This document shows positions 3,454 to 52,526 of a stretch of DNA of 53,271 nucleotides, piece after piece (the stretch's first letter is position 1; every line of letters starts with the position of its first letter). Source of the DNA: Dehalococcoidia bacterium (GTDB taxonomy: Bacteria > Chloroflexota > Dehalococcoidia > GIF9 > UBA5629); assembly GCA_028716085.1 (NCBI GenBank), contig JAQUQM010000003.1, positions 1 to 53,271 of the forward strand. Reading direction: 5' to 3'. Below the pieces are notes generated by a model, which searched no databases, was not told where the DNA came from, and saw only the letters and a list, made by a program, of their open reading frames with translations. The position numbers and the translations under genes are program-made.

Positions 3454-4815
3454 TTAAGTCAGGGCAGCGATGCTGTCAGCCTCTATTACATGGATCCGCT
3501 GCTGGTTGGCAAATTGCATCGCATCCTGTGAAAGCGGCGAAGAGACAATCACTATCTTATCATGAATACCTATATCATAAGCCTTGGTATCATAAGACGA
3601 TATCGCTTCCATGCCGACCTCTTCCTTCGTGGACAGGATGCCGATAGATATTGTATGGGTGAAGATACCGTCGTCGAAGTATGCCACGATGTCCATGGTA
3701 TATTCTGCTCCGGACCTGCCCTTGATTCTGGCATTCTCCTCTACTTTATATCCCTGGCCCGCCAGGTATTTTAACAGCTGCTTTTTGTTCTGGAACTGGA
3801 ACGGTATCATATGGACCGGGCGGGCCGGCGTATTTACGGCAGCTTTTAAGAATTCTTCCAGCTCTTTGGCGTCGAAGGTCTTGATGCGCTGTCTCCGCGC
3901 AAATTGCCTGGCCTCGCTATTGAAACCGGGCAATGCCAGCAGTACTTTATCATGTATTCCCAGGTCATAAGCCCGGTTATCATATCTGAAAACATCCTCC
4001 AGCCCGATATCCTCATTTTCATTAGCGATAGCGATGCCCACTCCGATATTAAAGACGAGGAATCCGTCATCCCTTTGCGCCAGGATATCCATTATGTGCA
4101 CAGCCCCGGACCCGGTACCGCTGCTGACCTTGGCTTTCTCATATACCTCATAGCCCTGCTTCTTTAATAAATCAACAAAACTTGATTTAAAGCTCATGTC
4201 AAAATTCAGGCGGTTGCGGTTTTGTTCATCCAGCACGTACGAATTGACCACCTGCACCTTGGCCTCGTCATCGGCAAAGAAAACAGAGCATTTCATACAT
4301 TGCCATTTCAGTGATATCTCATTAAAAAGCAGGCCGCAGCTGCGGCATTTGTAGTTGACGCCCAGGCTCCTGTAATCGGTGCCCAGGAACTTGAGGGCTT
4401 TTCTGCAGTGCGGGCAAACGTATTTGCCACCGGTGACGAATTCTTCTTCCAGGGCGTTCTTGCCGCAGGCGAAATGCTCGATGATCCTGCCTCTGACTAT
4501 ATTACCAGACCCGCATTTGAGACACCTCAGGCTGGGCCTGAGGTTCATAGAGTTGCAGACAGGACAGAAGATTAAACGGTCAAAGAACCGCGGCTCCAAT
4601 ATGTGCTCATCAGCCAGTGATTCCAGTATTTTACGGCACTCATCCGGTTTTGCACCCAGAATTTCTTCTACCTGCGGATAGGCCACGCCCGATTCCTGGT
4701 TGATATCCATGACAGGCCTGATCTCCTCGATACGCCCGTCCATCATCTCCCTGATCAAACGTACGACACCGGGTTCGTGTGACACCTTGTGAACCGTATC
4801 AATAATCTGAATCAT
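3454..4815 (-). CDS. Zinc-ribbon (TackOD1-like) protein with two tandem Mrr/restriction-endonuclease-like domains
   Basis: Several CxxC pairs (CPVC..CLKC, HFACG, CPHC, CRSC, CMKC), then two related ~110-aa units (GYEVYEKAKVSSGTGSGAVHIMDILAQRDDG... and GYKVEENARIKGRSGAEYTMDIVAYFDDG...). Confidence 0.55.
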   Translation of the reverse strand: MIQIIDTVHKVSHEPGVVRLIREMMDGRIEEIRPVMDINQESGVAYPQVEEILGAKPDECRKILESLADEHILEPRFFDRLIFCPVCNSMNLRPSLRCLKCGSGNIVRGRIIEHFACGKNALEEEFVTGGKYVCPHCRKALKFLGTDYRSLGVNYKCRSCGLLFNEISLKWQCMKCSVFFADDEAKVQVVNSYVLDEQNRNRLNFDMSFKSSFVDLLKKQGYEVYEKAKVSSGTGSGAVHIMDILAQRDDGFLVFNIGVGIAIANENEDIGLEDVFRYDNRAYDLGIHDKVLLALPGFNSEARQFARRQRIKTFDAKELEEFLKAAVNTPARPVHMIPFQFQNKKQLLKYLAGQGYKVEENARIKGRSGAEYTMDIVAYFDDGIFTHTISIGILSTKEEVGMEAISSYDTKAYDIGIHDKIVIVSSPLSQDAMQFANQQRIHVIEADSIAALT

Positions 4816-5097: not shown

Positions 5098-8000
5098 ATG
5101 AAGAATACGTGGAAAATTGTTGTCCCGGTTTTACTCCTCTTTAGCTTAATCCTTCCTGATTTGCTGGTGTGGCATGCCGGTGGAGCGGCAGCTGCGGCGC
5201 GGACACTGATGTGGTCCGTGGTCAATACTCCCAGTGAAAACATCAGTGCTGTAATAGTCAGCCCCTCGGAGATCAATGCCCTGGCACTGGGATCGGACGG
5301 CCTGACCTTCTATTGCTGCGATACGGCGGACAACCAGACATACAAATCCCTGGACGGCGGGGTGAAATGGACTTGGGACATCAATACCACCCTCCGCGCG
5401 GCCGGGGCTGCTTTCCCTATCTGGGATATCATAGTTGCGCCCGACGATCCCAATTTCGTACTGGCAGTTGACAGCCTCTTTGGACCACCCGGTTGGGGAG
5501 GGCCAAAAAGGATCTTTTTTTCAGGTGACGGCGGGGCCAACTGGCAGAATACCGGTTTTCCCGCTATCGGCGTCAATGAATATATAAGCTGCCTCGACAT
5601 TTCAAAAAAATACGGCTCGGGCGGGGCTTTTCACGATATTGCAGTTGGGACGCGGGGAGATACCGTAGGCAGGATAAGGACCATCCAGTACAGCAGCAGC
5701 TCGATGGGTTCCTGGGCTACACAGCTCCCCATAACAGATAATATAACTGCACTCAAGTTTTCACCATCCTATGATACCGACGCGACCATAGCCGTTGTCT
5801 CCTGCAACATAACGACGAGTTTGCACCTTGGCAAACATGATCCTGTAGCCAATACTACATCATGGGATGCAGCCGGCGGTTACGCCGGATACCCGGTCAC
5901 AGTTGCCCCCTATGTTTCCACAAATATCATCAACTCCGATCTTGAGTTACCTTCGGATTTTTCGGGAAATACCGCAACTGAAATCGCCAGCTTTGTCAGC
6001 GTATTAACTGACAATGCATCGAGAGTATTTTATGTCAACACTAATATTGTTCCCAGCGTGCTCAATATTACGCCCCCATATTCCACCGTTATCCCCAACA
6101 CCAACTATTCCAACGGCATCTATTCCATTGCCTATAATGGAAGCCTGAGCTCCGGCATGTTGCTGGCTGGTGAAAAGGCAGCCAACCGGGGTGAAGGATG
6201 CGTGAAAATCTGGCAGTGTTCCAACCCTCAATCAACCACGCCCGGCGGGGCGACTTGGCTTCCCTCGAATATTTATAAATCTCCTACCGGCGGCGGTAAT
6301 TCAGGACGGGCCAATGCTATCCTGGCCTGGGGCGCAGACGGAATCTCAGTCTACTGTGGGACAAGCTCGGAAAATGCTACCCTCGGAGGCACCGGCTGGC
6401 TCTCAGCGCAATGGCCACAGTCAAAGCTGTGGTCACAACGCCTGGATGAGTCGGCCTTCTCACGCAGCAGGGACAGCGGGATAAGCTGGAACCAGCTCAG
6501 CCTGGTTGATACCAGGATCAGCAGGCTTTCCGATGTCGCAGCACTGGACGTCCCCGGGGGCACGAGTGGATCGGGAGAACATAACACGCTCTATGTGGCA
6601 ACTCTCAATGAGCCTCTCGCTGATAATACAACTTTTGACAGCATCTGGCGCAGCACCAGCGACGTTCCCGGTCAGGTATGGGAGCGTGTGCTGACCTGGC
6701 CGACAAGCGATCAAGGGATGATATTGCGCGTTAATCCCAGGTCGGACCCTAAAAGCCAGGTCATAGTCTTCGCCGACCTGTATACGGATAATATCACCTA
6801 CTCGGACGATGAAGGCCAGCTATGGGAAAAAGTCAACAGCAACATGCTGGTTAATGATATTACACTGCCGGCAGATAATGTGCTTTACGTCCTTGACAGT
6901 TTCAGTGTACGCGAAATATCTGTGAGCGGCACGGGCTGGACACTGGGTCCCAAAGTATTCACTGACCTTGATTCTCCGGCGCATACTATTTGCAGCCCCA
7001 TGGTCAATCGCGACTCTTCATCAGGAGAGAAAGAGGAAATTGCCATCATCGGCACAGGCCGCATTCCGGGAGTCACCGATTATCCCGACAGCTACGTGGC
7101 ATATGTGGACCTCGCCCAGCCTGTACCGGTATTCACAGTATTGAAGCGTTTGCCTCTTCGCGGCGATGTTCATGTTGCCGCGGACAGCAAGTTTGATGAG
7201 AACAACAATATCTATGCCGCCATTAATAACGGCGTGGGAGACGACGGCATCATTTACCGCTGGACGTTGGATACCAATACCGATTGGGACTACCTCGACC
7301 CCCCCAACCGGGCTTATTACGGAACGGCAGTAGTGGATGATGTTCTCTACGGTTTACGGGATTATAGCATGCGCCTGGCCAGCAATGGGGGTGGAGTAGA
7401 CAGAACGCTCCATCCCAGGATAAAGGTGCCCCCCACCAACGAACTCGAATGGGATGATATCACCGACGGATTACCGATATCGGGAGGCACAATACTACCC
7501 ATCCGTTTCACCCGGGAACCAACATCGTTGAAAACGTCGTCAAATTCCAATAATACTCTGTGGGCAATCGATAATCCGCCACCTGGATTCAACTATGCAT
7601 TTGATAACAGGACAGGCTGCCTGTGGTCCTATGTCGATTCCGCCGCCAGGCTCGGCCCCTGGCCCACGTCTCCCGCGGCAGGCAGCTATACAGGCGCCGA
7701 CCCCGTCACCGGGCGATCTCAACAGATCGACTTCAAATGGCGGCAGCTAAGGGATATGGTGGCATATGACCTGCTGGTAGCCAAAGACGTCGATTTTAAA
7801 AATGTGCTCAGCAGCGTGGTCCCAGGTATGCTCGTGGATAACCTGACCTTCGCCTGGGTCATCACACCGGCAGATCAGCAATCCCCCGCGTTCTGGGTTG
7901 CTCCTGGCGCCATGGAGGCCGGCCGGCCGTATTACTGGAAGGTACGTGGCAGCAGGGCCCTCGGTGATAACACGACCGTTGTCATACACAGCCGCTGGTC

Positions 8001-39958: not shown

Positions 39959-40006
39959 GAGGGAGCATCTTGTGGGTTCAGTCCCATAAGGTTCTCCCTC
40001 AATATT
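39959..40006. terminator. Hairpin terminator between convergent genes
   Basis: GAGGGAG (39959-39965) ... CTCCCTC (39994-40000), inner TGTGGG/CCCATA, then AATATTTTT. Confidence 0.6.
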
Positions 40007-40529
40007 TTTCTATCTCATCAATCAGCTTATCAAGAAAGGCAATCCTACCCCGAGCTGCGCTGCTTAACAGGTGAGAGCAACCCTTCTGGCTAGGTGAGAG
40101 GACCATATCCAGTTTATCCAATGAGATCAGCTTTTTAACGAGATTATCAAAATCACCATCACTCGTGATGATAATTGCCTTATCGTAGTTATTTATCTCA
40201 TCCATAACCTGTAATACAAGGTCAGCATCACAATCACATTTGGTTTTGCCTTTATCTACTTCGAATGTTTTACCGCAAACCGGACAGGTAACAGATTTAC
40301 CTCCCTTTTTAGTAACATCCCGGAAGGCCAAGGTATAGCCGTACGAAGACAGAGCATCGTAAATATGCTGGTTTTGGGGTACACGACCCATGAAGTAATA
40401 AGCGATGGTTACATTATGCCTTTTCTTCAGGTACGATAGTAGTTTATCGTATTTAAGCTGAATGCCTAAACCAATAAACGTGAGGTGAAGGTTGTTGCCA
40501 TCGATGAATACGAAATTACTTATAGGCAT
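39999..40529 (-). CDS. NYN/PIN-like domain protein (LabA/DUF88) with internal zinc ribbon
   Basis: 176 aa; NFVFIDGNNLHLTF, AIIITSDGDFDNLVKKL, CPVCGKTFEVDKGKTKCDCDADLVLQV. Confidence 0.8.
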   Translation of the reverse strand: MPISNFVFIDGNNLHLTFIGLGIQLKYDKLLSYLKKRHNVTIAYYFMGRVPQNQHIYDALSSYGYTLAFRDVTKKGGKSVTCPVCGKTFEVDKGKTKCDCDADLVLQVMDEINNYDKAIIITSDGDFDNLVKKLISLDKLDMVLSPSQKGCSHLLSSAARGRIAFLDKLIDEIEKY

Positions 40530-40640
40530 CGAAGGGGATTATAACACCTCTATTTGCGGTGTCAATGGGAAGTGGTAAGTATTCGGTGGACTGCTTCATG
40601 GGATAAATGGGCAGGGCTTTTACACCCTGCCCTATATAAC

Positions 40641-40838
40641 CTATACACTGACGTGCTGCTGGATGAATTTACCAAGTGCTAAGGCTTCCTGATCTGTGAG
40701 CATGATACGATCGAATTTACGACCGTAGGCGCAATAGCCGTCCAGGAACAGGTTATCGCCCAAGTGGGATACTTCGATGCAAAAGCCATCGGCAAAGGAA
40801 CCGCGCAAAATAACTTTGTCCAACTTTTCTTCCGCCAA
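40641..40838 (-). CDS. Small hypothetical protein
   Basis: 65 aa; MAEEKLDKVILRGSFADGFCIEVSHLG...; ATG preceded by AGGAGG-like sequence. Confidence 0.5.
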   Translation of the reverse strand: MAEEKLDKVILRGSFADGFCIEVSHLGDNLFLDGYCAYGRKFDRIMLTDQEALALGKFIQQHVSV

Positions 40839-40951
40839 TCAAGACCTCCTTTATTTTGATATACCAGGCCGACCGACCAGGCGCATTGAAGAGCGCACGG
40901 CCATTAGCTGCACCAGCGGGCACAGCCGTGAGTGAGAACTTTAAGTTTTCC

Positions 40952-42353
40952 CTTTCACTTTCTTATCAGCAGAATTTTGCTCAAGGCCGTGGCTGCAAGG
41001 ATGAATCACGAAGTGATCACTTTTGAAATAAATTTCCCTCAGCACCTAAATTTATTTTGAAAGCCTGCCTTGCAGCCACCGAAGCCATTGAGCGACAAAA
41101 TATGTCTTGAAAGTGAAAGATAAATACCTTGATCTACAGATGGGGGATAGGCGGCACAACATATTTTTGGGGGTAAGCCGGACGCTGTGCCGCACGGCGC
41201 GCAGGGCGTAGCCCGAGCACCCGGCAAAAGCGGACGGCTGGGTTGGGGGAAAAGAGAAACTCTTAGAAGTTCTTGACCTTCATTGTTCCCGCCGTCACGG
41301 CCAGTGCGGGACGCACCGGAGCGGAAGCGACGCACCGGAACGGTGTACGGCCGTGGCGGCGGAATAGATTGAACGGGCGGTGAGGGCGAGATAACCGGCA
41401 TGGGGTGATGTTAGATGGCCGTGGGTGGTGTGCCTGGGGGCAGGCCGACGGTGGTGGAGAAATGGCGACAATTACGCAGTAACGAGCTGCGAAACGCACC
41501 GTGGGCCTGCGGCGGGCGGTTAACAGTAACCTGGTTTTTATGTTGAAAATGATTAAACCGCTCATAAAAACCGGGCTGCCCGCCCGCCGTTCACCCCAGG
41601 CACATGGGGCAAACGGGCGCCGTGCCGGGTGTCGTGCTTCTCATTACCTGCACGCACACTGGCAGCGGCTGCCCGTGGGCTTGGAAGCACAGCCAGTTCA
41701 TGCGATGGCCGACAGGCCAGGGCATGACGGCTGTGGTAGGCCATCTGCCAGTACTACTATCCGCCGGTTTCGCATGGGGTGGGGCAAATGAAAGTCTCCA
41801 ACCGCTTTGATTCTTTCCGAAAAGCCCTCTGGCGGGGTGGGGTTGGGACGTAACCTGGCGCACTGACCTGGCAACGATACCAAGCTCTTAGTGTGCTGAC
41901 CTGATAAAAGGAAGCGACGAATAAAGCGCAGATGCCGGTTGACGGGAACGGATGGCGGGGAAGTAGGTGGGTGGTGGTGAAGATCACCAACCGCTTTTAA
42001 TCTTCGAGCGACCAAGTTAACAACGCAACGATTGCTGCGAATCCGATGGGGATTGGTGGATGGGGGCATGGGGTGGATGCCGTGCATGATCTGCGGGTAG
42101 CCAAAATTGTGCGAACATGACCTGGCCCGGACATGGGAAGAACAAGCAGCGTGTGCATCTCACCGTAAGGCATGGGATAATGGGGCAAGAACCCGGCAGC
42201 GAGGCTGGGCGGCCGGCAAGGGGCTGGAGTAGGAGATAGGCGTTTGTCAGTTGACAAAGTAGTAAGAAGTAGTAATATTAGGACATTAAAGGTTCCCCCC
42301 TGGTGAATGTGCCCCCGGGCACTGCCTAGAGCTAGCCGGGGGGGTCATTTTTT
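40952..42353 (+). ncRNA. Candidate giant structured non-coding RNA (~1.4 kb)
   Basis: No convincing CDS. Long imperfect inverted repeat 40952-41119; stems 41510-41519/41580-41589 and 41530-41542/41563-41575; hairpin 41704-41745; repeated loop hairpins 41790-41817 and 41979-42005; ends in intrinsic terminator. 5' end not known. Confidence 0.6.
42312..42353 (+). terminator. Rho-independent terminator
   Basis: CCCCCGG (42312-42318) / CCGGGGG (42336-42342), then TCATTTTTT. Confidence 0.75.
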
Positions 42354-42360
42354 CTCCGAG

Positions 42361-42996
42361 CTAATAGAGCTGCAGTTCGCTTTTTATCAAGCTCCGAATC
42401 CTGGTGTAAGACCGCTTGTCTGAATTCTCCCATTTTCTATATATCGCCCAGCTACAATAGTCCACGATTTGCAAGTAGGGATGGCTCATTGAGGAATGCA
42501 TCAACACCTGATAGGGCGTACGTGAAAAATGCTGCGATAGATACTTCTTCACACCCTTTATCAAGGATTCCCTATCCCTGGCATGGGCAAACTCTCTATC
42601 CATAAAAACGAAAACCCTGTCATGCCCCTTGAGGCCGGGTATGCCATTCAGAGCATCCTTGAACAGACTGGAGATCATAACCGGATAGGCAAGCTCGATA
42701 CTGTGAAGCGAGACCGGGGATTTTGCCTTCTCAAAAACCACACTATCCATGCGCATGTGGGTGAACTTGCTGATTATATCGAAAACCTGGTTCCTGACTT
42801 CTTGTCTATCCTCGGCAGCATGGAAATATTCGACCTCGAAACCGCCATCAATTAACCAATGCCTACGAGCATGAAGATCGATAACACCAGGACAAACATC
42901 CTCACACATCACGCTGGTAAGCACAAGATATTTAGTACCGGAAGGCGAGAAATCATAATTGCCAGATACATCTATGAACACATACAAAGGAGGCAT
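42361..42996 (-). CDS. DUF3800 domain protein
   Basis: 211 aa; N-terminal LYVFIDVSGNYDF, YLVLTSVMCED, central VFVFMDREFAHARD, C-terminal HPYLQIVDYCSWAIYRKWE, matching the DUF3800 pattern. Confidence 0.75.
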   Translation of the reverse strand: MPPLYVFIDVSGNYDFSPSGTKYLVLTSVMCEDVCPGVIDLHARRHWLIDGGFEVEYFHAAEDRQEVRNQVFDIISKFTHMRMDSVVFEKAKSPVSLHSIELAYPVMISSLFKDALNGIPGLKGHDRVFVFMDREFAHARDRESLIKGVKKYLSQHFSRTPYQVLMHSSMSHPYLQIVDYCSWAIYRKWENSDKRSYTRIRSLIKSELQLY

Positions 42997-43232
42997 AACC
43001 AGTGAATTATATCAGCCGGTCACCCAATGTCAATGCAGAGCGAACTACAGATCAATCCTAGTTTTGACTCCCTATAGACCTTTTTACCATCAAGATATAG
43101 TATCACGGAATTGAACTAGAACAGGAAACAATTTAATAAGTTTAAAAATTATTTCTCAGAAGAACTGTAGCTAAAATAAGAATAACAGCAAAAAGAAATT
43201 ACAAATTATTTCTGTTAAAATAGAAATTGATT

Positions 43233-44273
43233 ATGCCCTCAAAAGGAAAGGCGCCGGTCGACAGGGAAGTTGGTCCAGAGAATGAGTTCTATTTCCAGTG
43301 GCATGTGACGGAGCGGTGCAACAGGCGATGCTTACACTGTTATCAAAGTACACAACGTACGAAGGAACTATCAACTCCCGAACTGGGTAAAATCCTAACA
43401 ATTATGGAAACGGCGCTCGCCAAATGGAACCGCAGGGGATCAATCTCCTTCACCGGGGGTGAACCCTTCATCCGTCGTACAGAACTGATTGACCTGCTGG
43501 AAAAGGTGGATAAGAGCGCGCAATTTGATTTCTACGATATTCTGACAAACGGGTCCCTAATTGACAATGAGCTTTTGATATTGTTGAAGAAAGCCAGCAA
43601 ATTAAGGCGAGTCCAAGTCTCCCTTGAAGGTTCTACCCCAACGACCAATGACAGGCTTAGAGGACACGGTAGTTTTGCAGAGACAATGAAAGCAATCAAA
43701 GGACTAAAACAATGCGGTTTCACGGTGAGCGTTATGACCACGGTAAGCCGGCTGAACTATCGGGATATATCGAACATCCTCGATTTATTAAAGCAAGAAG
43801 GAGTGGACACTTTTTCGGTAGAGCGTCTGGTCCCGGAAGGCAAAGGTAAACAACTCAAGGACCAATTGCTCACTGCATCAGAAGTAAGGGACATGTTTGA
43901 GTTACTTTACAAATTGAAGCAAAAGAGCAAGACCCCCCGAATACTTACATACAGGCCGCTTTACTGCTTAGTCGCTCCTGATGACATGCACAATGGTGCT
44001 CTCTGCTCAGTTGGAAATAATGCACTGACAATAATGCCTGATGGGACAGTCTACCCATGCAGGCGTTTGCCAATACCGATAGGCAACATACTTGAGGACG
44101 GTTTGTTCTCAATCTGGTACCAGTCCGAAGTATTGTGGGATATTAGAAACCCTGCAAATCTCAAAGGAAAATGTGGTCAATGTAATTTAATGACACATTG
44201 CCGCGGCTGCAGAGCAGTTGCATATGCGGTGACTGGAGATTACTTAGCGGAGGACCCCCAATGCTGGAACTGA
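43233..44273 (+). CDS. Radical SAM/SPASM peptide maturase
   Basis: CxxxCxxC in TERCNRRCLHCYQS; C-terminal SPASM cysteines (CSVGNNALTIMPDGTVYPCRRLPI..., KCGQCNLMTHCRGCRAVAYAVTGDYLAEDPQC). Start 43233 ATG or 43227 TTG. Confidence 0.88.
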   Translation: MPSKGKAPVDREVGPENEFYFQWHVTERCNRRCLHCYQSTQRTKELSTPELGKILTIMETALAKWNRRGSISFTGGEPFIRRTELIDLLEKVDKSAQFDFYDILTNGSLIDNELLILLKKASKLRRVQVSLEGSTPTTNDRLRGHGSFAETMKAIKGLKQCGFTVSVMTTVSRLNYRDISNILDLLKQEGVDTFSVERLVPEGKGKQLKDQLLTASEVRDMFELLYKLKQKSKTPRILTYRPLYCLVAPDDMHNGALCSVGNNALTIMPDGTVYPCRRLPIPIGNILEDGLFSIWYQSEVLWDIRNPANLKGKCGQCNLMTHCRGCRAVAYAVTGDYLAEDPQCWN

Positions 44274-44602
44274 GGCCTGATACTATATTAACTCTGGCAC
44301 CCCAAATTGTACTCCATTCTATCCCAGACCAAGAATGGTATTTTGCATTCAATATCACAACGGGAGACCAGTTCAGATTGAATAGGACTTCATACTGGGT
44401 TCTGGAACAGATCAATGGTGGGGTTGAATACAGTACTTTAATGCGATCTGTTTTAAATATATTCGAAGTGCCAGAGAATCAAGGCAGCCAGGATCTAAAG
44501 CAACTCATCAATAAATTAATAAGGCAGAAGATAATAAGGAGGCAAGCCGATGCAAAAAAAGAAGATACCGTATCAAAAACCCGTCGTCGTAAAGCAAAAT
44601 AA
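44261..44602 (+). CDS. PqqD-like (RRE) protein
   Basis: MLELRPDTILTLAPQIVLHSIPDQEWYFAFNITTGDQFRLNRTSYWVLEQINGGVEYSTLMRSVLNIF...; overlaps radical SAM stop. Trimmed from ORF 44198-44602. Confidence 0.75.
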   Translation: MLELRPDTILTLAPQIVLHSIPDQEWYFAFNITTGDQFRLNRTSYWVLEQINGGVEYSTLMRSVLNIFEVPENQGSQDLKQLINKLIRQKIIRRQADAKKEDTVSKTRRRKAK

Positions 44603-44687
44603 GATGGTCTTCCCATCCCAAATACTCGCGGCAAATGGCAAAAAGGTCGTTTGCAAACAGTGTTCATCGTGCCATGGGTGCAGATGA
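44550..44687 (+). CDS. Putative RiPP precursor peptide, 45 aa, Cys-rich C-terminus
   Basis: ATG at 44550 preceded by AAGGAGG: MQKKKIPYQKPVVVKQNKMVFPSQILAANGKKVVCKQCSSCHGCR*. Too short for the supplied ORF track. Confidence 0.65.
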   Translation: MQKKKIPYQKPVVVKQNKMVFPSQILAANGKKVVCKQCSSCHGCR

Positions 44688-44741
44688 CATGATAAATTGC
44701 GGCCTGATACAAGCTTGTAAGCGTTTGGTAAGGTGTGATAT

Positions 44742-46493
44742 ATGGATCAAGAATACACTCTTCTCCAAATGATTGGTCATGTAGCCGACTTTTTTAAGGC
44801 CCAAGGATTCCGCACTGAGCAATATAATGAACTGCTTTACAACGTGCGATTACCCTTGTACTGTGTCCGCAAGGGGAAAGCGCGGGAAGAAATCGTAGTT
44901 GACGTCATAACTGAGGATCATATCAGTAAGAATACGTACATGCCAAACAAGCATTTAGGCGATCGCTTCGTACCAGATGCTTCAACTGTTAAATTTTTCC
45001 AGTACTATCTGCCGAAGGCAAAAGTCTATTGGGCATATGGACACTATGTAAAATCAACAAAGGACTTCGATGAATTCAAGAAAGCCTGCCATAATAACGG
45101 CATAGGGTTGCTGAGAGTATCTGACAACCAAGTAACAATAGTACAAGAATCCACTCCGCTCAACGTTATCATTAGTCAGCGGATTCAGGCGGCTCTTGCC
45201 GATGAACCGGGAATGAATCGAGGGATCATAAGCAAAGTTTCGGCAATTATCAATGAACACCAAAAAGAATACATACAATACCTGGTGATCTACGGAGAAC
45301 CTAGCTTCTCGCGGCGAGCGATTACTGACCGCAAAGATGATCTAGGTCTTTCCTTAAGTATGCTGCTGATAAACAAATTGGAGAGCGTCCGTAACCTAGT
45401 ATATGGTGACAACTTAAAGAAGTTCACACGCAACTATAGGTATGAGAAAGAGAACGATCACCAAATAGCATTCAAACTGATCAATGCATTGTGGGAACGG
45501 CGATTCAAAACTACATATCCTGATATACACAAAGACTTCGAGACAGTATTAATGCTTGACAGGGGTTACCGGGATCATTTTCTTCATCAATTCCAAGTCT
45601 TCATTTTAGGTGCGTTGATAATTGATACCTTGTACCACGAGCAATGGGTCAAAGATTTTGAGAAGCACTATCATTCAAAAATTGAAGACGCTTGGTTAGC
45701 CTGTGCAACTTACCACGATTATAACTATCCAGTTCAGAGATGGGATGGCTGGATGAAAATATTTATAGAGCAGAATTTCCATATAAGCAAAGTTTCGGCT
45801 GAACGCCATATAGGAATTCATGATGTGGAATCACAAGTGGCACGGCTGAACCCTGGGGAAATTGTTATCCGTGACGAATTCATTGCGAAGATGCAGAGAC
45901 TGTGCATGGAAATTGGATGCAAATTAGACGACAGATTTCAAAGATTTATCCTACGCCGTGTTGCCATTGATAAGAATCATGCTGTATTAGCAGCTTTCAC
46001 ATTCGTTGAGAAATTTCAGGGTGCCACAAACCTTTCGGATACTGCAATCAGTGCCGTAGCTACGAGTATTCTGTTGCATGATGAGTCGAATTGGCAGTGC
46101 TTGCGTGGAAACACTATTGCCCTTCTTGAATGTACCAACCGGAAAGAGGGGCAAATTACTAATGAGGAAAAGTCGATATGCAGCAGCCCCTTAATCGGTG
46201 AGCTATCTCTTAATGGAGGACCGCTAAATTTCCTGCTGGCATATTGTGATGTTGCACAAGAATGGGGACGGAAGGGAGGAAACTCCGAAGTTATGCAGCC
46301 ATTACTAGAAGATATTCAAATCGATATTAAACGGATCCTCGTTCATGTGTCGGTGTTGGACGACAATAGTTTTGGAATCAAGGAGAAAGAGATACGTAGA
46401 CTAGGTGCCTATCTAAATGATCCAAGATTCGAGTTAACATTGACATCGCGTGAAGGCAAGGGCAACTACAGTAAACCAATGAATGGCAAATAG
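44742..46493 (+). CDS. HD-domain-like hypothetical protein in RiPP locus
   Basis: 583 aa; RDHFLHQFQVFILGALI ... ACATYHDYNYPVQ, resembling an HD-type metal site. Confidence 0.45.
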   Translation: MDQEYTLLQMIGHVADFFKAQGFRTEQYNELLYNVRLPLYCVRKGKAREEIVVDVITEDHISKNTYMPNKHLGDRFVPDASTVKFFQYYLPKAKVYWAYGHYVKSTKDFDEFKKACHNNGIGLLRVSDNQVTIVQESTPLNVIISQRIQAALADEPGMNRGIISKVSAIINEHQKEYIQYLVIYGEPSFSRRAITDRKDDLGLSLSMLLINKLESVRNLVYGDNLKKFTRNYRYEKENDHQIAFKLINALWERRFKTTYPDIHKDFETVLMLDRGYRDHFLHQFQVFILGALIIDTLYHEQWVKDFEKHYHSKIEDAWLACATYHDYNYPVQRWDGWMKIFIEQNFHISKVSAERHIGIHDVESQVARLNPGEIVIRDEFIAKMQRLCMEIGCKLDDRFQRFILRRVAIDKNHAVLAAFTFVEKFQGATNLSDTAISAVATSILLHDESNWQCLRGNTIALLECTNRKEGQITNEEKSICSSPLIGELSLNGGPLNFLLAYCDVAQEWGRKGGNSEVMQPLLEDIQIDIKRILVHVSVLDDNSFGIKEKEIRRLGAYLNDPRFELTLTSREGKGNYSKPMNGK

Positions 46494-46507
46494 AATGGAG
46501 TCAACGC

Positions 46508-47356
46508 ATGCTTGGCCCCAAGACTAACCTGCGTGATACAACTATCAGGGCTATTGTTGGTCTTGCCACATTTCTCGACGCTGGAATGCGTTCCCAACTT
46601 GAGCCATGCCGCCTCGCAAGAGCCGGGTATGCACTGTTGCAAAGCGGTTGCTCCGCCAAGGAAGGGACTTTCCCAGGTAGCGAGCTAGCTTATTACGTTA
46701 TAAAAATGCAACAGGACGACGGCGGATGGACGAACACTGAGGAGACATTATGGTGCCTTGCTTACCTCAGCTCATTTGCGGGAAGGTACGAGACTCAGAT
46801 TAAGAAAGGAGTGGAATGGCTTGTGTCGGTTCGTTTGCTGTGTGGTGCATTTGGCAACAGTTCACGAGATTGTCCTCGTATTCCTATAACATCTCTTGCT
46901 ACAATTTTAGCTCCTGCCTGCACGGACAATTATTCTGCGAAATGGGTAGCACAGAGATGGGAGACAGACCTAGAAGGCAATACGAAGCTGACTTATAAGG
47001 GAGCGTACTACCTATTGACTAAGATGCCGCCAATATCACATAGCAAAAATAAACTCTTAGGTAGAACCGTTAATTTCTTAAAACATGAGCAAGATAATAG
47101 CGGTGGCTTCGGTCCGTGGAAAGGACATCCTCTAGGCTGTGACGCTTGGAGTACAGGCATTGTCTTGTGGGGTTTATCCAGATTGGGTACTAAATCGCCT
47201 AAGATTGTGATAAAAAGGGCTATTGAATGGCTTCAAAGAACTCAACTACCTAGCGGCATGTGGCCTTATCATTATCTGGATGACGGAACCTCGATGGCAC
47301 TTATTGGAATCACAAGTGCATTGACTGCCCTGGGAGCCACGGAATGTGCGGCATAA
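46508..47356 (+). CDS. Alpha/alpha-toroid (prenyltransferase/squalene-cyclase-like) protein
   Basis: 282 aa; repeated QxxxGGW/GF motifs: MQQDDGGWTNTEETLW, EQDNSGGFGPWKGHPLGCDAWSTG, TQLPSGMWPYHY. Confidence 0.65.
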   Translation: MLGPKTNLRDTTIRAIVGLATFLDAGMRSQLEPCRLARAGYALLQSGCSAKEGTFPGSELAYYVIKMQQDDGGWTNTEETLWCLAYLSSFAGRYETQIKKGVEWLVSVRLLCGAFGNSSRDCPRIPITSLATILAPACTDNYSAKWVAQRWETDLEGNTKLTYKGAYYLLTKMPPISHSKNKLLGRTVNFLKHEQDNSGGFGPWKGHPLGCDAWSTGIVLWGLSRLGTKSPKIVIKRAIEWLQRTQLPSGMWPYHYLDDGTSMALIGITSALTALGATECAA

Positions 47357-49059
47357 CTGGTATCTTCAACCAAGCTGACAGTTCGATCATTTCGACCATG
47401 GCCCGTACAATAGCCTACCGGGGGCCAGACAGGCGGGACTGGTTAATCCTGGGCAATCATAGCCTGGGAGCATCTCGCTTGATTATTACCGGGGACCCAC
47501 GGGCATCAGGGATATTCTGCGACAAAGACGCAGGACTGGCATGTATGATCAACGGTGAAATCTACAATGTGAAGCCACTAAGAGAGGAACTCAAGCATGC
47601 CGGATACACGTTTCAAACCGATCTTGAGACTGAAGTCCTGCTAATGCTATACAGACACTGGGGAATCGATTTTGCTACTAAACTCAAGGGTATGTTTGCC
47701 ATAGCAATCTTGGATGGGGACCGACTAATTCTTGTACGCGACAAATTGGGAATCAAGCCGCTCTACTATGCTGAACTTGGGCGACGTATACTTTTTGGCT
47801 CTGAAATCAAGGCCATCTTAGCTCATCCAGAATTCAGGCCAAAGATAAATGAACCTGCCTTAGAAGAGATTGCCGTTTTCGGGTATGTACATACCCTTGA
47901 TGCTACGCCGTTTGAAGCTATTCAGCAGGTCCCGCCAGGTACTATCATGGAATTTACCTCGGACGTGAAGGCTGTAAAGTCATTCTGGGAGGTGCCCGGC
48001 GCTACCTATAATAATTCAGAAAAGCAGCCGCAATATCCCGATGCCGTTCAGGACCTGAAGGATACCATCATCTCCAGTATGGATACCGTCCTTCGGCATG
48101 GTGATCATCCCTTCGGCATCTACCTATCGGGTGGGTTGGATTCAACGATCCTGACATTTGTGGCAAAGAACATCCTCGGTTATCCAATTCAAACCTTTAC
48201 CCTGGCCGATGAGCAAGAGACCGATGACCTTCTAGCAGCCAGGAGAGTGGCTTCGATATTGGGAACAAGGCATCTCGAGCGGCGAGTCAGTATTGAAGAT
48301 TACTTCGGGGCGCTCGATCATTTCATCTGGCACTACGAGTCGATTATGGCCGGTGGTGTCTTCGACATCCATGGTGCGATGGCCTTTCACCTGCTATCCA
48401 AGACAGTCTCGGACCACGTCAAGGTCGCACTATCCGGTGAAGGCGCCGATGAATTGTTTGGGGGTTACTACTGGGTATATACTCACCCTCTGGGCTTTTC
48501 TGACCGGATTAGGGACAGGCTGAGCAAACTCGAAAGGGCCGGAACTAGCGTGATTGCAGCAGTGGAGAAGTTATTTCCACTGCCAGAGGACGAGCACAGA
48601 TACAGACGCAACCTATTTGATGACCTGATTCACGCCGGCCTCTCCAATTATCATCTGCAAAGTGTAGACAGATCTGCCGGTGCTTATGGCTTCGAGGTAC
48701 GCCCGGCCTATCTATATGATGACATCGCAGAACTTGCCCTGAATCTGCCTATAGAATACAAGGTTACGGACGATCAAATTACCAAGCGTATACTAAAGGA
48801 TGCATTCAGACCAGATTTGGAGAAGCTGGGTTTAGACTGGGTTTGTGACCGTCAAAAATATGGCATGCCTGCAGCGGTTGCATCTATTGCACCTTATATA
48901 AAAGAGAGGATCGAAGCTGCGGTTAGTGACGAGGACCTCAAGCATCATCCAATGAGAAGGTTTTTGCGCACTAAAATGGATGTATATCTCTTTAACCTGT
49001 TTACCAAAATCTTCTCGCTGGAAAATGAATATGCAACACAGGATTGCATTCCTCAGTAA
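47344..49059 (+). CDS. asnB: Asparagine synthetase (glutamine-hydrolysing)
   Basis: 571 aa; MCGITGIFNQ (N-terminal nucleophile Cys), YRGPDRRDW, IYLSGGLDSTILTFVAKN, ALSGEGADELFGGY. Confidence 0.92.
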   Translation: MCGITGIFNQADSSIISTMARTIAYRGPDRRDWLILGNHSLGASRLIITGDPRASGIFCDKDAGLACMINGEIYNVKPLREELKHAGYTFQTDLETEVLLMLYRHWGIDFATKLKGMFAIAILDGDRLILVRDKLGIKPLYYAELGRRILFGSEIKAILAHPEFRPKINEPALEEIAVFGYVHTLDATPFEAIQQVPPGTIMEFTSDVKAVKSFWEVPGATYNNSEKQPQYPDAVQDLKDTIISSMDTVLRHGDHPFGIYLSGGLDSTILTFVAKNILGYPIQTFTLADEQETDDLLAARRVASILGTRHLERRVSIEDYFGALDHFIWHYESIMAGGVFDIHGAMAFHLLSKTVSDHVKVALSGEGADELFGGYYWVYTHPLGFSDRIRDRLSKLERAGTSVIAAVEKLFPLPEDEHRYRRNLFDDLIHAGLSNYHLQSVDRSAGAYGFEVRPAYLYDDIAELALNLPIEYKVTDDQITKRILKDAFRPDLEKLGLDWVCDRQKYGMPAAVASIAPYIKERIEAAVSDEDLKHHPMRRFLRTKMDVYLFNLFTKIFSLENEYATQDCIPQ

Positions 49060-50161
49060 ATATCCGCCAATAGAAGGCGGTATAGCAGCCAGAACATACT
49101 GGCTAGCGCGGGGATTAGCTGCCAGAGGACACGAAGTCCATGTTATCACGCATGGAACGGGAACCGCCGGGCAGTATCAGATTGAGAAAGCTGAAAATCC
49201 ACCCGACGCGCGGCCGAACCTCAAAATACATAGATGTGAAAATGTCATACCGTGGCATATCCCTGAGGATAAAGAAACCTTCATCTCACTCCTTGATCTA
49301 ACATTGGACCTGGTAAAAAGAAATACCATTGAAGTACTGGATAGTGGATATCTGGTTCCATATGGAATTGTTGGTTCACTTGCCAGGAAACTTACCGGGG
49401 TCCGCCATGTAATGCGACACGGTGGATCGGACCTGGAGAAGTTCCTCAAGAATGGGATATTCCCAACGTTGCTGGCAGATAGCATAGCAAGCTCAGATAT
49501 GATCGTGACAAATAAAGCCGATGAAACAAACTTTAAGTCGATGACCTCAAATGTTATATCTATTCCAGCGTACATACCTGACGAAGCCGTATTCCATCCT
49601 AACAGGGATAGACATCTAAAACATGGGCGGCTAGCCTTCATCGGCAAGATAAACTACCACTGGGAACACAAGGCACTGGACAAGATCAGCTCAATAATGG
49701 GGTATCTGGTACCTGAGTACGAATGCTTAATTGTCGGACAAGGAAACGGTTTGAGCAACTTCAAACAAAGCCTGACTGCTTCATTGAGCGCGGCGATTCA
49801 ATGGAGGCCATTTATAGCACCCTGGGATATGCCGGAGCTGCTCGAAAATCTTGACGCAATTTTCTTATTCGAATCGATGCTGCCATACAGGACCTTTTCC
49901 AACCTGGCACTGGAAGCAATATGGTCAGGGGTAGGAATCATCACAGATAGACTTGAATTTGCGGATATTTATACAGATACGGTGGCGCTGACTGATGACC
50001 AAGTGATAGCTGTATCGCCGGATGAACCTATGGAAGCAGCAGCAAAGGTCAAGGCATGGCTAAACATGAGAAAAAAGGCAGTGCCCAGGAGCACCATCAC
50101 ATTTAACGATTATCTAACCATCAACGAGAAGATTTATACAAGACTATTGGATATGCGGTGA
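49025..50161 (+). CDS. Glycosyltransferase (GT4/GT-B-like)
   Basis: ATG at 49025: MNMQHRIAFLSKYPPIEGGIAARTYWLARGLAARGHEVHVITHG; overlaps asnB. Confidence 0.78.
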   Translation: MNMQHRIAFLSKYPPIEGGIAARTYWLARGLAARGHEVHVITHGTGTAGQYQIEKAENPPDARPNLKIHRCENVIPWHIPEDKETFISLLDLTLDLVKRNTIEVLDSGYLVPYGIVGSLARKLTGVRHVMRHGGSDLEKFLKNGIFPTLLADSIASSDMIVTNKADETNFKSMTSNVISIPAYIPDEAVFHPNRDRHLKHGRLAFIGKINYHWEHKALDKISSIMGYLVPEYECLIVGQGNGLSNFKQSLTASLSAAIQWRPFIAPWDMPELLENLDAIFLFESMLPYRTFSNLALEAIWSGVGIITDRLEFADIYTDTVALTDDQVIAVSPDEPMEAAAKVKAWLNMRKKAVPRSTITFNDYLTINEKIYTRLLDMR

Positions 50162-50728: not shown

Positions 50729-52087
50729 TTAGCCATTACGTTGTCCTCCAGTGGCAACCCTGGGAGTGCTGTCCTGAGCAGCCTTAACGCAAAGGGCGAG
50801 GGACATCAGGTAATCGTCGTGGCCTTCCGATGGATCAACAAAGAAATTAATAGTCTGATTAGGACGATACTGGGACTTAGCTTTCTCCAGCTCCAAAAGG
50901 AACTCAGCGAACTCACGACTACCGTCACCGGCATAGCATTTGAGGCGATTGGAGTTAACAGCGGCGATAAGGTCGAAGCCAAGTTGAGACTTGCTAACCT
51001 GGGTGAACTTGAAGGGCTGGACACGCGCGCCGCAGGATTTCTGTAAGAATGAGGCAACCGGCTCACCGATGCCGGTAGAATCGCATAGCACACGGCTGCA
51101 ATTCCAGGTATTTTTGATGAGATCGACAAGCTGGGGGTAAAGCTCATGATGCAGTTTGCCTATCCAGGCATAATGCTCAACAACCTTCAGCGCTGGCTCT
51201 TTATTCTCATTACGGACAACTTCGGCTATAGTGACGACAGTGGCGTCGCGCTGAGGACGGGTCAAAATAATGTCATCGAGCTGCTCATCCTGTCCGGCGA
51301 TATCAATACCGGCAACATATATAGCGCCAGACTGCCGGGAGCGGAGACGGGAATGGCTGCCGATGACCTGCGTCACCTGAGCGCGGGAAAAGAGACGGCC
51401 GCTGGCTGGCAAGGGTAAAAGGCGATACTGGGTACGAAAGAGGGGATGATCATCGCCCAGGCGCTGGCGCTCGGACTCAACAAAGATGGCATATCCGGGG
51501 TTATATTTGGCTACTTCTTCCCAGGGATAGCGGAAATGGCGCTTGATGCCGTCCTGCTTTTCAAGCTCAAGATTAAGCTGTTTGGTCTGCTCAAGAAGAG
51601 TGCCATCGTCCCAGGTAGTGCCGTAGTGAACACTGGTGGCGTTGGTGGATGACGCCATGGGGCGGAACTCCTTGGAATACTTATCCTGGTTGATATCCTG
51701 CGACTCGTCCACTTCCAGTAAAAGGTCGGCGGTGTGGCCGACGACATTGGAACTTTCATCGGCGGACAAGAACACCTGGCGGGCAGCTCCCAGCCTCAAG
51801 ATATAACCGAACTCAGCCTGCCAGATGCCATCATAGCCAAAATCATCCAGGCGGTCCTTAAGACGGTTCATGGAAATAAGCGTCTGCGGCTTGAAGGTTG
51901 GAGAGCATTTGATGGAAGTACCGCCCTTCGCTATAAACATCGTCAACAAAAGCACCTCAATATGAGCAGAAAGCTCGTTTTTCCCGCCCTGGCGTGCGAT
52001 CTCAACTGAAAACGTAAGGCCTTTCTTTTGCAGAATGCTATCGAAAATGGCCCTGGCAACTTCCTGCTGGTATGGCCTCAATTCCAT
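50729..52087 (-). CDS. Phage terminase large subunit-like protein
   Basis: 452 aa; RPYQQEVARAIFDSIL, SVEIARQGGKNELSA (Walker A-like), LLLEVDESQDIN (Walker B), nuclease region YVAGIDIAGQDEQ, LCDSTGIGEPVASFL, EGHDDYLMSLALC. Confidence 0.85.
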   Translation of the reverse strand: MELRPYQQEVARAIFDSILQKKGLTFSVEIARQGGKNELSAHIEVLLLTMFIAKGGTSIKCSPTFKPQTLISMNRLKDRLDDFGYDGIWQAEFGYILRLGAARQVFLSADESSNVVGHTADLLLEVDESQDINQDKYSKEFRPMASSTNATSVHYGTTWDDGTLLEQTKQLNLELEKQDGIKRHFRYPWEEVAKYNPGYAIFVESERQRLGDDHPLFRTQYRLLPLPASGRLFSRAQVTQVIGSHSRLRSRQSGAIYVAGIDIAGQDEQLDDIILTRPQRDATVVTIAEVVRNENKEPALKVVEHYAWIGKLHHELYPQLVDLIKNTWNCSRVLCDSTGIGEPVASFLQKSCGARVQPFKFTQVSKSQLGFDLIAAVNSNRLKCYAGDGSREFAEFLLELEKAKSQYRPNQTINFFVDPSEGHDDYLMSLALCVKAAQDSTPRVATGGQRNG

Positions 52088-52435
52088 CTACTGAATAAAT
52101 GCCTTTATTCCCAGGGGAACTGCGATCTCCGTAAGAGCCTTGGTGATGGCATCCTTGAGCGACTTCTTCTGACCGGCGCTGATGTTAAACTTGGTGCGGA
52201 CTAGCCGGGCTATGGTGCTTGCAGCGACCATTTGAAGGTCGATGCGGTCGGGATGCTCGTTAATAAGCGTGAGCAGCTTGACGCGCAGGATGGCGATCTC
52301 TTCGTCTATGCCCTCAACGGCACGTGCTTCGTCAAGCTGAAGCTTTTCAGCCTCATCAAGAACCTGGCTGTAGAAGCCGTGTGTCCGGGCATTCTGGTTG
52401 CCCTTGGGCGCACCGCGCTTTTTCTTTTCTGTCAT
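52088..52435 (-). CDS. Phage terminase small subunit-like protein
   Basis: 115 aa; KKRGAPKGNQNARTHGFYS motif; directly upstream of TerL. Confidence 0.65.
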   Translation of the reverse strand: MTEKKKRGAPKGNQNARTHGFYSQVLDEAEKLQLDEARAVEGIDEEIAILRVKLLTLINEHPDRIDLQMVAASTIARLVRTKFNISAGQKKSLKDAITKALTEIAVPLGIKAFIQ

Positions 52436-52526
52436 GAATTACTTTGAGCATGCCATAGACGATGGCCAGAGCTGCCAGCTCGTAATTTTGCTCATGGAGT
52501 GCCTTTTCAAGTAAAGGTACCTGCAT
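52356..52526 (-). CDS. Small ORF upstream of, and overlapping, TerS-like gene
   Basis: 56 aa read by eye: MQVPLLEKALHEQNYELAALAIVYGMLKVIHDRKEK...; not in ORF track. Confidence 0.35.
   Translation of the reverse strand: MQVPLLEKALHEQNYELAALAIVYGMLKVIHDRKEKARCAQGQPECPDTRLLQPGS

Follow-up and report, generated by a model that had tools for sequence, protein, structure and literature searches.

Between the gene for a 65-aa protein and the DUF3800 gene, the window (the whole stretch of DNA analyzed here, 53,271 nucleotides) has ~1.5 kb without convincing genes, and this interval holds two things: a large structured element, and a separate small RNA gene that faces the DUF3800 gene. The large element represents a previously undescribed family of large structured non-coding element; its length is about 0.6 to 0.9 kb (up to ~0.8–0.95 kb including a variable tail), and on balance it is best read as a + strand RNA, for which we infer transcription, + as the sense strand, and function as a folded molecule. 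A sequence-only reading of this region had proposed one ~1.4-kb RNA occupying 40952–42353 and possibly tied to DUF3800; the large non-coding structure at the heart of that proposal is borne out, and its limits and its unity are not. To our knowledge very few bacterial RNA classes above 500 nt have been described, most of them without known function. If the RNA reading is true, a new large RNA in several copies beside anti-phage genes would give a handle on what large RNAs do; if the element is a mobile repeat instead, its length and internal conservation would be unusual for one. The features are collected in Table 1.

Table 1. Features of the interval and its flanking genes, in window coordinates
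Feature	Position	Strand	Remarks
Gene for 65-aa protein	40641..40838	-	Divergent from the element and duplicated along with it in L009; evolves under purifying selection; matches no known family
Long imperfect palindrome upstream of core	40945..41128	.	Found otherwise only in own-genome copy L009
Conserved core, ~555 nt	41289..41842	+ (putative)	blastn and covariance-model matches in L009, L010 (two) and L011, part in L012; conserved structure
5' domain: 15-bp hairpin CCGCCG...CGGCGG around two small hairpins	41289..41362	+	
Branched domain, closed by long-range helix 41404-41420/41739-41755	41404..41755	+	Compensatory changes
Most conserved stretch: helix 41440-41458/41493-41510 around GGCGACAATnACnnAGTnACGAGCTGCGA	41440..41510	+	Invariant columns
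Hairpin CGGCGGGCGG...CCGCCCGCCG	41511..41588	+	
3' core domain with TCGCAnGGGGTGGGG and CCAACCGCTT	41723..41847	+	Model R2: 112-147 bits in five copies
Variable tail	41848..42235	+	Sequence matches; no more stable than shuffles
Promoter-like TTGACA-N16-TAATAT of candidate small RNA	42251..42278	+	Between large element and hairpin
Candidate small RNA (~65 nt) ending in terminator hairpin, DUF3800-IX-like	42286..42352	+	
DUF3800 protein gene, convergent with candidate small RNA	42361..42996	-	PF12686, 6.8e-9

The interval is GC-rich and G-biased, as the sequence-only reading had noted: GC is 0.56–0.61 with positive skew (G-rich on +), vs ~0.42–0.47 outside, and the open reading frame listing shows only short overlapping ORFs on both strands, which resemble no protein. 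The packed complementary arms described there are likewise apparent, since 40940–41939 folds with a z of −9.95 (0 of 20 shuffles as good). Strong folding is confined to part of the 1.5-kb interval and does not extend through all of it: relative to shuffles, z is −5.4 for the upstream piece and −8.4 on + and −7.9 on − for the core (41284–41860), and 41860–42360 is no more stable than its own shuffles (z +0.2). The conserved element starts sharply at ~41289, not at 40952, and its 5' domain forms this sharp end in every copy that retains the domain; the palindrome that lies further upstream is a separate feature, with a strongly conserved first half (1 substitution in 40941–41040 between the own-genome copies).

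Within the core, the stretch 41440–41510 shows 4 substitutions per 100 bp between the own-genome copies, and the distal stem of the hairpin that follows it reads TTTTTATG/CATAAAAA in four of the five copies, with GCAGCG/CGCTGC in its place in L011. Homology beyond the core reaches ~42067–42235; the variable tail contains a second CCAACCGCTT unit at ~41986, the end motif GGTGGATGGGGG near 42053–42067, and a piece at 42169–42227 common only to the window and L011. The tail of the L011 copy also contains, at ~3738–3772, what by eye is a tRNA-Lys-like anticodon-arm fragment (CTGACTTTTAATCAG).

The homologues that blastn had been expected to supply exist: the core was found in at least four other places, giving five near-complete copies in three genomes, all in one family. 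L009, located in the window's own genome but on a different contig, repeats at 91% identity the 65-aa gene, the palindrome upstream of the core, the core itself and some of the tail, with homology to the window stopping at 42059. Two copies (L010a and L010b, 74–79% identity) share a single contig of Dehalococcoidia bacterium UBA4060, and L011, from a lake-sediment Chloroflexi MAG, has one copy that matches in pieces of 71–81%; the upstream part, 40952–41280, is absent from L010 and L011. In a fourth genome an internally shortened copy (L012) keeps the first ~90 nt and the GGTGGATGCGGGGG end and has lost most of the interior. A contig from another genus (L066, G014:C34) has the type III methylase flank of L010b (99.7% over 1547 bp) and ends 47 bp into the element. 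Module 41179–41228 of the upstream flank recurs within L010a (92% over 50 nt), where it replaces part of the core, a mosaic make-up. No convincing homologue was found outside the family, either with one model in 394 genomes of the class or by blastn at the level of the order (84 genomes) and of the phylum (399 genomes) (within the family, 30 genomes were searched with three models). DNA and pattern searches of phages, plasmids and IMG/VR gave no match to the element, and a pattern scan of GTDB returned the already known contigs and no others. Several model hits were rejected, in L024 and L033 as weak and inside coding genes, and in L021, L025 and L034 as weak and unconvincing fits; matches of 26–49 bp in other families (E ~5e-4) were taken as chance.

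Comparison of the five copies supports a branched fold closed by a helix that spans ~320 nt. Their consensus fold scores −165.7 vs −111.5 ± 6.1 in 60 column shuffles, which preserve the conservation pattern (z −8.9), and z is still −7.6 after removal of the most divergent copy; L011 taken singly is barely more stable than its shuffles (z −1.3). The covariation that the sequence-only reading called for is also observed: in the named structure 17 pairs are changed on both sides vs 8.7 ± 2.1 (0 of 500 shuffles as high), a comparison whose controls are limited by sequences that are few and related. Sliding the helix partners leaves 1–3 doubly changed pairs; in a refolding control the best shuffle likewise reached 17. 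The compensatory changes are plain in the arms of the closing helix 41404–41420/41739–41755, which read GTGCTG/CAGCAC in L009 and L010b, GTGTTG/CAACAC in L010a, and GCGGTGG/CCACCGC in L011. With only five core copies from one family, the covariation depends on few independent changes.

No known class accounts for the element. Rfam at gathering thresholds gives no family for it anywhere in the window, and covariance models of GOLLD, ROOL and OLE give no match at E up to 5 in 40000–44000, nor at E up to 10 in one L010 copy and in L011; group I and group II introns and HEARO have no Rfam covariance-model match in the window or in the same two loci. GOLLD RNA and ROOL RNA, both large and ornate, come from phages and prophages (PMC12286853). 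The large element resembles them in size class, in its elaborate branched fold with long-range helices, in its presence on islands with phage genes, in having no assigned function, and in the location of the L011 copy ~250 bp from a tRNA-Pro gene; it differs from them in that its neighbours are mostly restriction and anti-phage genes and in that it occurs in several copies per genome. OLE RNA is likewise a large ornate bacterial RNA, and for all three the large branched fold with covariation is matched as a resemblance only, from five sequences.

The phage-like setting recognized by the sequence-only reading is evident, the region being rich in phage and defence genes. Around four copies of the large element, restriction-modification or other anti-phage genes occur no more than a few kb away: L010a adjoins PDC-S46 (7.6e-255), L010b adjoins a type III restriction-modification pair, L009 has as neighbours an HmaB-like methylase and an Upx-like protein (6.2e-53, a match that misses the curated cut-off), and the window copy lies in a region with a methylase and a NYN nuclease. 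The association with defence is an observation on five loci. A PHROGs match identifies terminase small and large subunit genes at 50748–52516 (−), 82% identical in nucleotides to L010 3818–5589, and this common pair reads as a phage or satellite remnant; upstream in L011 an integrase C-terminal remnant was read by eye. The genes at 43227–50161 (radical SAM/SPASM, PqqD-like, asparagine synthetase-like, glycosyltransferase) have the appearance of a peptide-modifying (RiPP-like) cluster, in which only the radical SAM/SPASM assignment rests on a family search. In the favoured reading the large element moves between related Dehalococcoidia with mobile islands in which anti-phage genes and phage remnants abound, and would work there as a folded RNA, as a scaffold or multimer in the manner of GOLLD and ROOL or as the partner of an island protein. 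That it forms a new class of its own among large ornate RNAs, with no relation to GOLLD, ROOL or OLE, travelling with Dehalococcoidia anti-phage islands and taking part in their function (defence, island mobility or phage-satellite biology), is a speculative and, as a whole, unlikely proposition.

The sequence of the core appears constrained, because it changes more slowly (4–8 substitutions per 100 bp) than the 65-aa gene (10–18) and the spacer that follows that gene (15). That the element is what remains of a protein-coding gene now decayed, or of some other coding sequence, is very improbable. Open frames of 60–129 aa are present, and frames of this length are usual at 60% GC; they differ between copies, no frame is conserved, and the gaps in the core, mostly not multiples of three, break every one of them. 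Comparison of the two own-genome copies shows no codon-position bias in any core ORF; in the 65-aa gene, used as a control, 18 of 28 substitutions fall at third positions (18:4:6 at positions 3:2:1). The 65-aa protein has relatives in its own genome only. A more serious competitor, still doubtful but with a real share of the probability, is a MITE-like non-autonomous mobile repeat, moved by enzymes encoded elsewhere, whose structure has its use at the DNA level, in end recognition and hairpin intermediates, and whose RNA, if any, is incidental read-through. Like bacterial MITEs and palindromic interspersed repeats (REP, BOX, RUP), the element is intergenic, dispersed and structured on both strands; multiple copies per genome (two in its own, two in G015) have unrelated flanks, a sharp common 5' end and a similar 3' end motif, L012 resembles an internally deleted copy with both ends kept, and the recurrence of the upstream-flank module inside L010a points the same way. 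Scans for signals found nothing better than weak promoter-like sites around the start of the core, and in no copy does the 3' end carry an intrinsic terminator; this favours such a repeat and, like the similar folding of both strands of the core, counts against the RNA reading. Nor do mismatches favour the + strand, G-U vs A-C being 6 vs 4 in four copies and 8 vs 18 with L011 included.

Unlike MITEs, REP, BOX and RUP, however, the element is much longer, low in copy number, and conserved in its interior between genera. Its strongest conservation is internal and partly unpaired, not terminal, and it is therefore unlike a repeat selected at its ends only; moreover, a branched fold with a helix whose arms lie 320 nt apart exceeds what a MITE needs. 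The element ends have partial CCGCC/GGCGG complementarity, and by eye no clear target-site duplication is recognized in the copies; no transposase is common to all of them, and no empty site was found through the L012 flanks, where homology stops at a stop codon and not at a joined site. Unpaired bases are 28% A and 33% G on +, vs 20% A and 38% C on −. The purine-rich conserved + loops, the internal conserved centre and the branched fold point to RNA.

A large + strand RNA would probably not extend to the DUF3800 gene. A single giant RNA filling 40952–42353 and ending at the terminator at 42349 agrees with a continuous, gene-free + strand, a terminator at its end, and the piece 42169–42227 common to L011, but it is improbable: an internal promoter-like site lies at 42251–42278, the model of a known small RNA family matches the whole of the hairpin at the end, L009 diverges from 42059, the tail is no more stable than its shuffles, and 40952–41280 is missing from L010 and L011. 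The predicted terminator is itself present, as a G+C-rich hairpin followed by TTTTTT at 42294–42355; what is not supported is its role as the 3' end of the large RNA, and a promoter-like site precedes it. The hairpin (42294–42349) scores 23.2 bits against DUF3800-IX RNA (RF02968), short of the gathering threshold of 36.8; E is 0.0052 in a search of 151 bases and 0.02 over its own genome, where it is the only match at E up to 1; the alignment covers the model from 1 to 67, with outer stem, inner hairpin and U-tract and no broken pairs shown. It lies 12 bp from the 3' end of the DUF3800 gene, which has a perfect promoter at 43033–43006 (−). Judged from these sequence features, the hairpin is most likely a separate 65-nt RNA of the DUF3800-associated kind, with its own promoter and terminator.

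The convergent DUF3800 gene proposed by the sequence-only reading is confirmed, and the suggested tie to it belongs to this separate DUF3800-IX-like small RNA; DUF3800 has no such tie to the large element. Among the other copies, a DUF3800 gene is nearby only on the L010 contig, and there it has its own small convergent RNA: the gene at 6156–6830 is faced by a promoter at 6970–6942 (−) and a terminated candidate RNA of ~100 nt (6834–6970, −; fold z −4.2), with the same TTGACA/TAATAT layout as in the window and, at the same interval, a weak full-length match to DUF3800-I RNA (RF02969; 16.2 bits, below gathering 44.2). DUF3800-IX and DUF3800-I RNAs are small terminated RNAs beside DUF3800 genes, as here; unlike their members, both candidates score below gathering, and the DUF3800-IX likeness is confined to the 65-nt hairpin and does not involve the large element. 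With a small RNA convergent with a DUF3800 gene at two loci of a single bacterial family, the DUF3800–RNA link becomes testable.
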